From positions 1 to 37,398 of the forward strand of contig JAKQQP010000357.1 in the NCBI GenBank assembly GCA_029564115.1: a stretch of 37,398 bases of DNA, read 5' to 3'. The notes under the pieces are model-generated. The model was not told where the DNA came from. It ran no database searches and saw only the letters and a list, made by a program, of their open reading frames with translations. This document shows positions 19,816-31,970 of the stretch, in pieces. Source of the stretch: Candidatus Rifleibacteriota bacterium (GTDB lineage Bacteria; Riflebacteria; Ozemobacteria; Ozemobacterales; Ozemobacteraceae). Position 1 is the stretch's first letter; the number at the start of each line of letters is the position of its first letter. The translations under genes were made by a program, and so were the position numbers.

Positions 19816-22068
19816 TCAGTTTCCCCGCTTTTTCTTCGTTTCTTTTTCAGTTTCGACGACAAGCTCGATTCCGGTTTTATCAGCTTTCATCTGCAGACGA
19901 CCGGCAACCGTCGAACCGTCTTCCAGAACGAAACCCTTTATAGTTCGCGTCGCTTTGCCGGCAATCAAAGAGTCAATTGCCGCCTGAGTCAGCTTTTTCC
20001 CGTGGAATTCTTTCCAGACGACGTAGTGACAACCTTCTTTAAACCTGTTACAACCGAAACCACGGTTGCCCTCGATGATGCCGCCTTTTTCGCAGGCAGG
20101 ACACGGCGCCAGAACCTGGCGTGTCTGCCCGAGCGCCCCTGAAACGTTTCTGCCAGCAATTGGCCTGCCAGGTTGAGAAACAACGGTTTCAGACAGGGCA
20201 TTCTGGCGATTTACGGGAGGAGGAGCAGCGGCAGCGCGCAGAATTGCCGAAGATTTTATCTGCTGAACGATATTGCAGACAAACCCGGTAATACCCTGCA
20301 TAAAGTCAGAGTCGTCATCGCGGCCTCTGGAAATATCTGCCAGACGCTTTTCCCAGCTTCCAGTCAACTCAGGACTGGTAATCTCGGGAGCCGCAAGTTT
20401 TATCAACTGAATTCCCTTCGGGGTTGGAATCAGTTTTTTCTTGTCTCGCAACATATATTCAACCCTGATGAGTTTTTCGATAATTTCAGCGCGGGTCGCT
20501 GGTGTGCCCAGACCGCTGTCCTTCATTGCTTCACGCAGTTCATCGCTTTCGATCAACTTTCCGGCAGTTTCCATCGCCTGTAGAAGAGTCGACTCGGTAT
20601 AGGCAGCGGGTGGTTTGGTTTTTCGGGTAAACAGAGTGGCGTCTTCTATGGTGCGCCTGTCGCCTTTTTTGAGATCAGGCAATGACTGGTCGTTTTCTTC
20701 GTCTTCAGACAGAGACTGCCCGTCAGCAGCCTTTTCAGCCTGCTGCTTTTTGGCACTCGGGTAAAGCACACGCCAGCCCTCGTCGGTAACCACCTTGCCC
20801 GTTGCCTTGAAGTGGTCTTTATCGCACTTGATGATGATTGTGGTTGAAAGATACTGATGATCAGGGTAAAAAACAGCCAAAAACCGTCTTACCACAAGAT
20901 CATAAATATTTTTTTCGGCAGTGCTCCAGCCAGAAGTGTCGGTCACCCTTTTTTCTGTTGGAATTACAGCGTGGTGATCAGAAACTTTGGAATCATCAAA
21001 AACCTTTTTATTCTTTTTTGGCCGGTTATTTCTCAGCCATTGCAGGTATTCATCGTATTCGCCGGGCAGAGCGGCAAAACGTTTCTCGATAGTAGGAAAA
21101 ATGTCATCAGAAAGGTATCTGCTGTCTGTTCTAGGGTATGTAACAACCTTTTTCTTTTCGTATAGGTTCTGCAGAACAGCAAGCGTATCGGCAGCCGTCA
21201 TCGAATAACGGGAATTGGCGTCGCGCTGCAGAGTCGTCAAATCGTAGAGAGCCGGCGGCGCCTGCTTTTTCGCTGTTTTTTTGGCACTCTGCACGACAGC
21301 CTCACCCCCCCGCAACCGGTCGGCGAGCTGCTGTGCCCGTTCGACATCGTCTATGCGACTTGGGTATTCTGAAGCATCGGGATCGAACCACAGGGCGGTA
21401 AAATCAGCCAGGGCCGCGCTTACCTCCCAGTAATCCTTGGGCACGAAATTTTGAATTTCCAGGTGTCTCCTGACCACCATAGCCAGAGTCGGAGTTTGAA
21501 CTCTCCCAACTGTGAACATACTGTTCAATTTGCGGGTGTAAGCTCTGGTAAAATTCATGCCCACGAGCCAGTCGGCTCGACTGCGACACAAAGCGGCCCG
21601 GGCAAGCGGGTCGTATTTTTCCCCTGGCCTCAAATCTTCAAAACCCTTTTTGATGGCTTCATCAGTCATGCTCGAGATCCAGAGACGCTTGAACGGTTTG
21701 TTGCAACCGGCATGCTGGTAAACGAGCCTGAAAATCAACTCACCCTCTCGGCCGGCGTCGGCAGCATTAATTATCATGTCAACATCGGGGCGATTAAAAA
21801 GCCTGGCAACATTGTCAAATTGCTGTCTTGATGATGGCAAAACCGTGAGTTTCCAATCTTGGGGAAGCATAGGCAGGTTCTCCATGCTCCACTTTTTCCA
21901 CGACGGGTTCTGCTCTTCGGGGTGACCTATGGCCACCAGGTGCCCAAAGCCCCAGGTTACTATATAATCACTGCCTTCGAGAAAACCTTCACCTCGCCTG
22001 GTGGAGCCGAGGATCTTGCCAATATCTTTACCAACCGAAGGTTTTTCGGCAAATACGAGAATTTTCAT
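19816..22068 (-). CDS. topB: DNA topoisomerase III
   Basis: A 750-residue type IA topoisomerase. The Toprim domain starts with MKILVFAEKPSVGKDIGKIL and contains NAADAGREGELIF; the active-site tyrosine is Tyr311 in VVTYPRTDSRYL; strand-passage motifs GRVQTPTLAM and GLGTPATRAEIIEKL are present. The C-terminal ~120 residues include a Cys motif (CPAC ... CNRFKEGCHY) and a topo III C-terminal repeat ending KGFVLEDGS, typical of TopB rather than TopA. It decatenates and relaxes single-stranded regions during replication and recombination. No clear ribosome site precedes the ATG. It is followed without a gap by the rhomboid gene, an unusual partner. Confidence 0.95.
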   Translation of the reverse strand: MKILVFAEKPSVGKDIGKILGSTRRGEGFLEGSDYIVTWGFGHLVAIGHPEEQNPSWKKWSMENLPMLPQDWKLTVLPSSRQQFDNVARLFNRPDVDMIINAADAGREGELIFRLVYQHAGCNKPFKRLWISSMTDEAIKKGFEDLRPGEKYDPLARAALCRSRADWLVGMNFTRAYTRKLNSMFTVGRVQTPTLAMVVRRHLEIQNFVPKDYWEVSAALADFTALWFDPDASEYPSRIDDVERAQQLADRLRGGEAVVQSAKKTAKKQAPPALYDLTTLQRDANSRYSMTAADTLAVLQNLYEKKKVVTYPRTDSRYLSDDIFPTIEKRFAALPGEYDEYLQWLRNNRPKKNKKVFDDSKVSDHHAVIPTEKRVTDTSGWSTAEKNIYDLVVRRFLAVFYPDHQYLSTTIIIKCDKDHFKATGKVVTDEGWRVLYPSAKKQQAEKAADGQSLSEDEENDQSLPDLKKGDRRTIEDATLFTRKTKPPAAYTESTLLQAMETAGKLIESDELREAMKDSGLGTPATRAEIIEKLIRVEYMLRDKKKLIPTPKGIQLIKLAAPEITSPELTGSWEKRLADISRGRDDDSDFMQGITGFVCNIVQQIKSSAILRAAAAPPPVNRQNALSETVVSQPGRPIAGRNVSGALGQTRQVLAPCPACEKGGIIEGNRGFGCNRFKEGCHYVVWKEFHGKKLTQAAIDSLIAGKATRTIKGFVLEDGSTVAGRLQMKADKTGIELVVETEKETKKKRGN

Positions 22069-29249: not shown

Positions 29250-29519
29250 ATGTTTACAGGTAATGTGTCGGGTTATCGACCAAGACCGGTTGAATACAAT
29301 CGCGAACCAGAACCCAGGCAGGTAGAAAGAAACCAGCCAGAACCCAATCGGCCATCTGAAGAAGAAGTTCGTGCCGAAAAAGCAGCTGAGGCTCGCGAAC
29401 TCGACAAGCGACAGTTCGAACGGCAGCAAGCTCCCGAAAATTTGCGCGCCGAAAGAGCAGCAAGTCAGCCACAGCGCCCGCAACAGATTCTTGGCGGCAA
29501 CATAGACGTTTACGCCTGA
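29250..29519 (+). CDS. Small highly charged, probably disordered protein
   Basis: An 89-residue protein made mostly of Glu, Arg, Gln, Pro and Ala (for example EEEVRAEKAAEAREL), with no signal, membrane helix or folded core. The Arg/Gln/Glu region could form a single long helix. The C-terminus ends GGNIDVYA, an ending I recall on small proteins of unknown role in several Gram-negative bacteria. AAAGGTGG nine bases before the ATG and a strong terminator 24 bases after the stop support a real single gene. Function unknown. Confidence 0.65.
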   Translation: MFTGNVSGYRPRPVEYNREPEPRQVERNQPEPNRPSEEEVRAEKAAEARELDKRQFERQQAPENLRAERAASQPQRPQQILGGNIDVYA

Positions 29520-29543
29520 CCATCTTTTTTAGAGATACACCTG

Positions 29544-29576
29544 ACCGGCTCAAGCCCGTGCCTGAGCCGGTTTTTT
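29544..29576 (+). terminator. Rho-independent terminator
   Basis: ACCGGCTCA and TGAGCCGGT form a 9-base stem with a 10-base loop, followed by TTTTTT. It ends the small charged-protein gene and isolates the microcompartment operon downstream. The 145 bases between it and the next ATG are AT-rich; only weak promoter candidates are visible there. Confidence 0.88.
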
Positions 29577-29721
29577 GTTGCTGTTTTGTCTGTGGTTGCC
29601 GCAAAAAACGGATAAAACATTTTTTCAAGTTTTATTCAGTCGATCGCCGCAATAATGTTGCGCTCCGGCTGCGAATCTGATAGATTTCCTCTGTTGAATT
29701 TAATATTTCGAGGAATTGTGA

Positions 29722-29985
29722 ATGTATCTTGGAAAGGTGATCGGTCACGCTGTCTGCACTGCCAAAGACGGGCAACTGCAGGGCTTGAAACTGATCATAG
29801 TCACTAAAGTCGATAAAGACGGCAACTCCAAAGGCAAGCCTTTCATCGCCTGCGATTCCACCGGCGCAGGAGCCGGTGAAACAGTTTTTCTCTGCGGCGG
29901 CGGCGAAGCAGCTTTTCCGTTTGTCAAGGTGCGACCGCCATCTGATGCAACCATCCTCGGGATAATTGATAAGATTGAAGGCTGA
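29722..29985 (+). CDS. Bacterial microcompartment vertex protein (EutN/CcmL family), copy 1
   Basis: An 87-residue BMC-P (pentamer) protein, the family that caps the vertices of bacterial microcompartment shells. The family pattern is clear: MYLGKVIGHAVCTAKDG at the start, KLIIVTKVDKDG, then CDSTGAGAGETVFLCGGG and the C-terminal ATILGIIDKIEG strand. Length is typical (80-100). GAGGA seven bases before the ATG supports the start. It is first in a three-gene operon; the next gene begins two bases after its stop and also encodes a vertex protein. No hexameric shell (BMC-H/T) gene is present in the window. Confidence 0.92.
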   Translation: MYLGKVIGHAVCTAKDGQLQGLKLIIVTKVDKDGNSKGKPFIACDSTGAGAGETVFLCGGGEAAFPFVKVRPPSDATILGIIDKIEG

Positions 29986-29987
29986 AC

Positions 29988-30296
29988 ATGGAAATTGGCA
30001 AAGTAGTCAAACAAGTCGTTTCGACGGTAAAAAACGAGGCCTTTGTGGGTCGACCGTTGTTGCTGGTTCAGCCTCTCAAAATGAACTTCAGCCACAAGGG
30101 CTCAGAAGTCCTCTGCATAGACTTTACAGGGGCGAATATTGGTGAATTGGTTCTGATAATGAAGGAAGGCAGCTCGGTAAACGACCTGATGGGGCTTGAC
30201 GAAGCACCTGCCGATGCTGCTATCATTGCAATAGTTGATCAGATCGTTCTTAACGATCAAAAAATATTTGAAAAATCAGTTGCCGAAGCAGTTTAA
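29988..30296 (+). CDS. Bacterial microcompartment vertex protein (EutN/CcmL family), copy 2
   Basis: A 102-residue second BMC-P protein, clearly different from copy 1: MEIGKVVKQVVSTVKNEAF, LLLVQPLKMN, CIDFTGANIGELVLIM and AAIIAIVDQIVLND mark the same fold. The glycine-rich loop is less rich in Gly than in copy 1 and the C-terminus carries a ~12-residue helical extension after the last strand. GAAGG overlaps the end of copy 1. Divergence of the two copies argues for distinct vertex positions or mixed assembly rather than recent duplication; this is inference. Confidence 0.88.
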   Translation: MEIGKVVKQVVSTVKNEAFVGRPLLLVQPLKMNFSHKGSEVLCIDFTGANIGELVLIMKEGSSVNDLMGLDEAPADAAIIAIVDQIVLNDQKIFEKSVAEAV

Positions 30297-30313
30297 AGCA
30301 GGAGGCCCAATAG

Positions 30314-31837
30314 ATGGAATCGATTGTCGAACAGATTGCCAGAGAAGTTATGCTCAAGCTCAAATCAGACTCTGCCAACCGTGGCTCGTCTTACACCCCC
30401 CCACCCCGTCGTTCAGAAGGAGCTGATCAGAAACCAGCCCGAACAGCGGGACAACCCGCCGTTCTAGTTACCGCCAACTTCAAGGTAATCGACCAGGTTC
30501 TTGGGCAACTCAAAGCACTCGCCCCTGAAGGCAGCCGCCTGATTATTTCTTCGTACCTCTACGAAAATTTTGGCAAAGACAATATCGGCCGTGGTTTTCA
30601 GCTGGCTCATTCAGGCAGTGTCCCCAGTCATAAAGCTCTCGAAGGGGTTGACCAGCTGATCGTTCCTTCTTTGTCGATCAACAGCATGTCAAAAGCCGCC
30701 AATCTGATTGCCGATACTTATGCAACACGAGTCTTGTGTCATGCTCTTGGCGATGGCGTTAAAATAACCGTAACTGATGAATCGGTAATAGATGCTGCCA
30801 GGTATTTTCCGGCCGGTGTTGCCCGCAAAATTGACCAGCTCCGGCGCGAGCTCGAATCAATGGGAGTAATTTTTCAGCGCGGCAACATCAAAATCACTCC
30901 TAACCATAAATGTGAAGACTGCGCTGCCGGCAAATGCGCCGATTGCGTAACCTGCGCTCCCACAAAAACAGACAACAGCAAAAAACTTTCTGATCCGCCG
31001 CCGATAGCGTCAATCAGCAGCCGACCGAGCTCAAACTCCAGCTCATGTTCTGCTGAAAGCTGTTCAAGAAGCTATGGCAGCTGTGTTTCTGAGTGCGCCG
31101 AAAAAGTAAAAGAAGTGATCAAAGCTGGCGCCGAAAGAATCGAAAAGGGGTTGAACGCGCCAATTCCAGGCAGCGAGCTGGCCCGCTATATAGATCACAC
31201 ACTTCTCAAACCAAATGCGACCCGCGAAGAAATCGTAAAATTGTGCGAAGAAGCTCGTGAATACAAGTTTGCATCCGTATGTGTCAACCCGACGTATGTC
31301 GGTCTGTCAGCCAAGCTTCTCGAAGGTTCGCCGGTCAAAGTCTGCACAGTCATAGGCTTTCCTCTGGGGGCAACTTCTTCATTCGTTAAAGCCACAGAGA
31401 CACGCGATGCGGTAGCCAACGGCGCAACCGAAATCGACATGGTCATCAATGTTGGCGCTCTCAAATCAAAAGATTATGAGTTGGTCAAAAACGATATTGC
31501 CAGGGTAGTCGAAGCCGCCAGTGGCAACACCGTAAAAGTCATTCTTGAAACATCGCTTCTGACCGATGAAGAAAAAGTCAAAGCCTGTGAGTTGTCGAAA
31601 CTTGCCGGCGCCGACTTCGTAAAAACTTCCACAGGTTTCAGCACAGGTGGAGCGACGCTTGAAGACATATGTCTCATGCGCAAGACAGTCGGCCCCAACA
31701 TGGGAGTCAAAGCAAGTGGCGGAATACGCGATACCGAAACTGCAGTCAGAATGATCCAGATTGGCGCAACTCGCGTTGGCGCCAGCGCCTCTGTTGGTAT
31801 CGTCAAAGGCGAAAAACCTGCTGGCAAAGGCTATTGA
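30314..31837 (+). CDS. Deoxyribose-phosphate aldolase fused to an encapsulation-type helix, flavoprotein-like domain and Cys-rich linker
   Basis: A 507-residue fusion with AGGAGG eight bases upstream. Residues 1-16 ([16 protein letters not shown]) form an amphipathic helix like the encapsulation peptides of microcompartment enzymes, followed by a Ser/Pro/Arg linker. Residues ~45-195 resemble a flavoprotein (PPC decarboxylase-like) Rossmann domain ([20 protein letters not shown]). A linker holds nine cysteines: C200, C203, C208, C211, C214 and C245, C250, C257, C261. From ~290 a complete DeoC follows: [14 protein letters not shown], Asp375, Schiff-base Lys437 ([13 protein letters not shown]) and Lys466 ([10 protein letters not shown]). 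DeoC splits 2-deoxyribose-5-phosphate to glyceraldehyde-3-phosphate and acetaldehyde, an aldehyde such shells could retain. DeoC identity is certain; the other domains are by pattern. Confidence 0.9.
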
Positions 31838-31854
31838 AGCACAATAATCAATTT

Positions 31855-31897
31855 AAAAAAACCGGGGCCGTCAGAAACGACAGCCCCGGTTTTTTTT
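31855..31897. terminator. Bidirectional terminator after the microcompartment operon
   Basis: ACCGGGGC and GCCCCGGT pair (with an inner GTC/GAC), flanked by six A on the left and eight T on the right, so the hairpin can end transcription from both strands. It serves the aldolase gene on the plus strand and the micro-ORFs on the minus strand. Confidence 0.9.
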
Positions 31898-31970
31898 ATT
31901 GGATACATCCGGTAAGACTGAATGCCCAGAACATTGCCACGAGAGAATAGAGCAAAATTCTTTTAATCAC
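31896..31970 (-). CDS. Tiny predicted lipoprotein (24 residues)
   Basis: A GTG-start frame with AGGAGG six bases upstream encodes MIKRILLYSLVAMFWAFSLT followed by GCIQ and a stop. It has a basic start, a hydrophobic core and a lipobox LTGC, so the mature product would be a lipidated Cys22 with only two more residues. This is entericidin-like in plan but even shorter. The bidirectional terminator follows at once. The strong ribosome site and lipobox argue for a real gene; nothing is known of its function. Confidence 0.5.
   Translation of the reverse strand: MIKRILLYSLVAMFWAFSLTGCIQ

Follow-up and report, generated by a model that had tools for sequence, protein, structure and literature searches.

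Two genes for bacterial microcompartment (BMC) vertex proteins followed by an aldolase gene, with no hexamer gene, raise the question of which shell, if any, their products serve. The operon concerned lies at 29722..31837 on the forward strand of a contig of a Candidatus Rifleibacteriota bacterium (JAKQQP010000357.1), all 37,398 nt of which were analysed and are referred to below as the window. It encodes a first BMC-P protein of 87 aa (BMC-P1; 29722..29985, +; PF03319, E 1.5e-24), a distinct paralogue of 102 aa (BMC-P2; 29988..30296, +; E 2e-23) and a 507-aa fusion protein (30314..31837, +) composed of a candidate encapsulation peptide (EP), a flavoprotein-like domain, a Cys-rich linker and a deoxyribose-phosphate aldolase (DeoC). 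The two BMC-P products reach 86.7 and 83.1 bits, respectively, against a PF03319 cut-off of 25 and cover positions 1-83 of 83. All three ORFs are intact and are separated by 2 and 17 bases; coordinates, PF03319 and TIGR00126 matches agree with the gene content given in the preliminary description, which had proposed either a satellite of a shell encoded elsewhere or a use of the vertex proteins outside a classical shell.

The same description had placed strong terminators on both sides of the operon. Predicted intrinsic terminators with a run of T occur upstream at 29538..29582 (+; -19.9 kcal/mol, z -4.61), setting the operon apart from the preceding 89-aa gene and PGI, and 3' of the aldolase at 31855..31905 (+; -26.4 kcal/mol, z -5.95). 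Both fold better than 200 of 200 shuffles, and neither was listed by a simple consensus terminator scan of the + strand. The small charged 89-aa protein encoded between PGI and the operon (29250-29519, +) is 33-41% identical in six loci and has no Pfam match. The absence of BMC-H and aldehyde dehydrogenase from the window was also borne out. When nine main-locus proteins of one relative and four of a consolidated locus were used as tblastn queries against the whole window, E <= 1e-3 was obtained for BMC-P and DeoC alone, the next best value being 0.059 (RpiB), and no BMC-H, BMC-T, aldehyde dehydrogenase, PduL, PduS, RpiB or DeoB was detectable with these queries. Pfam searches of 24 window ORFs, the remaining and mostly smaller ones lying outside the scan, gave no PF00936, aldehyde dehydrogenase or PTAC.

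The aldolase domain of the fusion (residues 286-500; 31169..31813, +) matches TIGR00126 over residues 288-496 with 298.8 bits against a cut-off of 117.3, and the best PDB match of the fusion model is 6d33 (TM to target 0.96, 69% identity). Residues K437, K466 and D375 are invariant in 93 of 93 aligned rows, and we take them to be the catalytic residues, with roles as in E. coli DeoC. A protein search in which the 7,998 candidates with the most words in common were scored listed 120 matches. At least 53 of these (P0001-P0053) are 58-93% identical to the fusion and span 99-100% of it; among the named records, P0029 belongs to Candidatus Rifleibacteriota, P0054, a partial sequence, to Candidatus Riflebacteria and P0022 to Clostridiales.

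Upstream of the aldolase, a helix predicted at residues 2-22 (30317..30379, +) is a candidate encapsulation peptide because of its position, its predicted structure and the likeness of the fusion N-terminus to those of the main-locus PduL and aldehyde dehydrogenase; its helical moment is weak and does not rise above shuffles, 18.6% of which do as well. The flavoprotein-like domain (residues 47-185; 30452..30868, +) scores 13.3 bits with PF02441 against a gathering score of 22.7, and 6 of the 93 aligned rows reach E 0.001 with this profile. Since the sequence match failed, the domain was folded alone from a 16-row alignment (mean pLDDT 78.2); the 50 PDB matches listed for the full-length model are all DeoC-type aldolases and uninformative on this other domain. 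The lone-domain model matches HFCD folds in a structure search, and on that basis the domain is designated as an HFCD-like fold only and not as a member of PF02441; that the aldolase fusion would carry a domain of UbiX/DmrB fold is a modest new point. The Cys-rich linker (30905..31096, +) contains two sets of cysteines. C200-x2-C203-x4-C208-x2-C211 is a feature of near relatives (38-40 of 41, against at most 1 of the 52 distant sequences), and of C245/C250/C257/C261, C245, C250 and C257 are kept in both groups (39-40/41 and 51-52/52). The linker could bind a metal or Fe-S.

Ten N-terminal pieces were aligned and used to scan genome contigs, which retrieved 19 loci, 14 of them labelled Riflebacteria, Rifleibacterium, Ozemobacter or Ozemobacteraceae. 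In 18 loci, the presence of thirteen window genes was examined, a series that starts with a Cys/Met-metabolism PLP enzyme, includes PGI and the operon and ends with PPDK: all 13 occur in order in L001, L002 and L005, 12 in L004 and L007, and fewer in short or more distant loci. Three records (L001, L008 and P0022) carry the satellite or its fusion yet are labelled, among them, Erysipelotrichia, Methylomirabilis and Clostridiales. The first two also have the flanking genes of the window, and their genomes (G008 and G001) belong to the Rifleibacteriota phylum set, which makes at least these two labels look wrong. A split of the satellite from a larger locus by assembly was rejected, as the same flanking genes occur in many relatives and as satellite and main locus are found 121 kb apart on a single contig (C7) of G009 (Ca. 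Ozemobacter sibiricus).

PF00936 was found in 17 and PF03319 in all 18 of the genomes behind the loci and, in a phylum set of 39 genomes, in 34 and 35, respectively. A strong PF00936 protein occurs in 32 of the 35 genomes with BMC-P, the exceptions being G003 and G007, in which the sole match is a weak stand-alone protein, and G016, which has none; PF00936 is likewise missing from the four genomes that lack BMC-P. DeoC matches to the family alignment were obtained in 33 of the 39 genomes, 31 of which have BMC-P. The number of BMC-P genes at most 2.5 kb from DeoC is two in 26 of these 31, one in four and zero in one (G030, with short contigs), while BMC-H occurs within 5 kb of DeoC in six. That the aldolase stays with a BMC-P pair and is seldom near BMC-H is also modestly new. 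Stand-alone DeoC-size ORFs of 234 and 254 aa occur in G027 and G028 (L108 and L107, respectively), in which no PF00936 or PF03319 match was found.

Of the twenty genomes that carry the satellite form, 16 encode a strong BMC-H at another site. The search for BMC-H beyond the locus, proposed in the preliminary description and run here in relatives, therefore points to a satellite locus, that is, shell proteins encoded alone or with enzymes away from the main cluster; the absence of a hexamer gene holds for the operon but not for most genomes that carry it. Vertex proteins and aldolase acting without a classical shell, for instance as a cytosolic pentamer-aldolase complex, would fit the lack of BMC-H in the window and the satellites of G003 and G007, which occur without any detected main-locus gene. 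In G003, no main-locus BMC-H, aldehyde dehydrogenase or PTAC was found, nor was UvrB, whose gene neighbours the main locus in G005; the same three main-locus genes were not found in G007, where UvrB is present on a contig that ends ca. 1.1 kb beyond it without any main-locus gene, and completeness values are not given for any of the genomes. In the two other satellite-type genomes without strong BMC-H, the main locus is cut at a contig end: G017 has BMC-T and aldehyde dehydrogenase on a 5.1-kb contig, and in G016, also without a UvrB match, PduL is encoded on a contig of 3,391 bp that breaks off next to this gene, where relatives have BMC-H. Together with the 16 genomes that encode BMC-H, and with the joint presence or absence of PF00936 and BMC-P across the phylum, this leaves a use without shell as highly improbable, and it was rejected. 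A stand-alone divergent BMC-domain protein (PF00936, 25-42 bits) was also noticed in 10 of the 39 genomes (e.g. L117:9030-9383 (-), 117 aa; L118:9598-9936 (-), 112 aa). In both loci its gene adjoins one for what is presumably, from its sequence, a NifU/IscU-like scaffold, with no other shell gene noticed, and the BMC fold may serve here in a role other than that of a shell protein.

In G005 (Ca. Rifleibacterium amylolyticum), Pfam searches identify a main locus with genes for a 356-aa protein, PTAC (PduL), BMC-H, BMC-P, aldehyde dehydrogenase, a PduS-like protein, a two-domain BMC-T (two PF00936), RpiB and a Metalloenzyme-superfamily protein. The PduS-like protein, with FMN, Fer4 and RnfC domains, is so named by inference from these domains, and the Metalloenzyme-superfamily protein after RpiB is probably DeoB. 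This gene order is repeated in L114 and L115 and, without the DeoB-like gene, in L120 (ORF reading). The protein of ca. 356 aa encoded first in the main locus (L110:8033-9103 (+); L122:1626-2717 (+)) has as sole Pfam match a weak, partial TIM hit of 23.9 bits, and a 32% identical relative is encoded beside PduL in G016.

A consolidated locus exists in G022, in which DeoB-like, aldehyde:ferredoxin oxidoreductase, 276-aa DeoC, BMC-H, two BMC-P, RpiB, a 350-aa protein, BMC-T, PduS-like, aldehyde dehydrogenase, a third BMC-P and a second BMC-H are encoded together. The oxidoreductase gene (L112:2958-5123 (-)), located between the DeoB-like gene and DeoC, suggests a second fate for acetaldehyde. 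G021 has a similar locus according to ORF reading and family matches, and in G038 DeoC, two BMC-P, RpiB and BMC-H occur together with BMC-T and the third BMC-P on other contigs. Had the same three genes been found in an ordinary BMC locus of close relatives, with the window copy merely displaced, the preliminary description would have fallen; the same kinds of genes do occur in one SPU-type locus in G021 and G022, but in closer relatives the distal position is real. The pairing of pfam01791 aldolase with pfam02502 RpiB that marks SPU-type loci was found in relatives: RpiB is in the main locus and DeoC in the satellite of G005, and both are in one locus in G022.

At 29658..29686 (+) there is a conserved promoter-like element, TTGCGC-17 nt-TAGATT, in which TCTG precedes the second hexamer; its first base is 64 bp before the start of the first BMC-P gene. 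With up to 2 mismatches, it occurs 50-86 bp upstream of the first BMC-P gene in 20 of 21 satellites (the window and 20 loci, one per satellite-type genome), the exception being L097, which has no match, and it was matched in 11 of 12 loci outside the set used to derive the motif. In five main loci, the 300 bp that precede the first gene of the main operon gave no match (for L116, this gene was taken from the ORF reading). Two-mismatch matches also exist elsewhere, for example at window position 21530, and in L114 and L115. A single promoter common to main and satellite operons was rejected, the element being missing before these five main operons, and the satellite's own putative promoter, itself a modest new point, suggests that the satellite is transcribed separately. 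This element, and the two distinct BMC-P paralogues that travel with the aldolase, could also mean that the satellite serves a BMC of another type than that of the main locus, with its own corners and an alternative substrate module. Such a second compartment is very unlikely given that each of the 16 satellite-type genomes has just one strong BMC-H gene, that the main locus keeps RpiB and the probable DeoB, the SPU partners of DeoC, and that G022 has nearly everything in one locus.

Three BMC-P genes are present in 25 of the 35 genomes that have any, and they fall into three separate clades in a tree of 73 distinct BMC-P cores obtained from fetched DNA, out of 95 phylum matches; with few columns, long branches and bootstraps that have not settled, the order of splits in this tree is unsure. 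Main-locus BMC-P form one clade of 17 rows (100/99), G021 and G022 included. BMC-P1 of the window groups with the first BMC-P of the 20 other satellites (99/95) and BMC-P2 with the second (100/99). Satellite BMC-P1 further groups with six members of the consolidated-locus pairs (99/94), while the second BMC-P of these loci shows no clean grouping with satellite BMC-P2 in this short, long-branched alignment. Most genes of a full locus are missing from the operon, as would be expected of a decaying remnant with no present role. The ORFs and active-site residues are intact, however, the promoter-like element and terminators are kept, DeoC has a BMC-P pair next to it in 26 of the 31 genomes and the three BMC-P genes recur across the phylum, all of which makes decay the least credible of the explanations considered.

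We therefore read the operon as a satellite of an SPU-type BMC in Ca. Rifleibacteriota whose shell is encoded elsewhere (probability ca. 0.92), because 16 of 20 satellite-type relatives have BMC-H elsewhere and both loci lie 121 kb apart in G009. Gene content, synteny, paralogy, linkage and the distal position in relatives come from the computational analysis itself, and from the genomes of these relatives a main locus can be expected in the window's own genome. Of the two readings first proposed, the satellite stands and the use without shell is not supported.

In the scheme that we infer for encapsulation, substrate, flux and promoter function, the DeoC fusion would enter the shell led by its N-terminal encapsulation peptide, while hexamers, trimers and the third pentamer would be supplied by a main cluster at another site, which also encodes PduL, aldehyde dehydrogenase, PduS and RpiB and often has a probable DeoB next to it. 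Acetaldehyde would be converted to acetyl-CoA by aldehyde dehydrogenase and then to acetyl-phosphate by PduL, with the electron carrier probably recycled by PduS. BMC-P1 and BMC-P2, as two of a three-member vertex set, would close or modify shell corners, and a separate promoter would set aldolase and corner composition apart from the core. For another vertex protein, PduN, tubular compartments have been reported upon its loss (PMC9243111). It is conceivable, though unlikely, that BMC-P1 and BMC-P2 are an aldolase-dedicated module, docking the EP-flavoprotein-DeoC fusion at vertices or forming a deoxyribose phosphate gate, with its own promoter turning a basal acetaldehyde shell into a DNA-sugar organelle; in this reading, the flavoprotein-like and Cys-rich part of the fusion may pass electrons between an internal cofactor pool and PduS.

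The arrangement itself, a satellite of an SPU/HO-like microcompartment, is already described in other bacteria. SPU loci were named by Axen et al. 2014 (PMC4207490), and according to Sutter et al. 2021 (PMC8217296) all SPU subtypes have pfam01791 and pfam02502 in common, with EP-like N-terminal extensions on some pfam01791 proteins. SPU loci, of which there are seven subtypes, contain genes for DeoC, RpiB, aldehyde dehydrogenase, PduL, PduS and the shell, and each of these is present in Rifleibacteriota genomes too; in the lineage of the window, however, DeoC has been separated from the rest together with two BMC-P. The satellite reported in Sutter et al. 2021 likewise consists of two BMC-P and an aldolase distal from the main locus, whereas the main locus associated with the Rifleibacteriota operon carries RpiB, an SPU mark, and the window aldolase adds the flavoprotein-like domain and the Cys-rich linker. 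The term 'riflebacteria' is absent from the main text of that paper, whose supplementary files may list such loci. Excerpts on the BMC of Ca. Atribacteria (PMC7542362) report syntenic contigs that carry genes for DERA, aldehyde dehydrogenase and the shell, as in Rifleibacteriota, and expression of the BMC genes in sediment; that BMC belongs to another phylum, and a BMC-P pair set apart with the aldolase is not mentioned in these excerpts. Both 'microcompartment' and a Rifleibacteriota-related name occur in PMC7602337 and PMC11382960. Modestly new is the phylum-wide view, in which aldolase and vertex pair stay together as a module from which the remaining genes of the locus have become separated.

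Sutter et al. (PMC8217296) describe a BMC-P triplet in which two paralogues (gray and orange clades) always co-occur, consider that this multiplicity hints at an additional role and ask why BMCs keep several vertex paralogues although 12 pentamers suffice. This question is touched by the finding that two of the three BMC-P paralogues are linked to DeoC. A seemingly hexamer-less microcompartment operon is thus best read as a satellite, and an SPU-type compartment, predicted from its genes, is documented in Ca. Rifleibacteriota.
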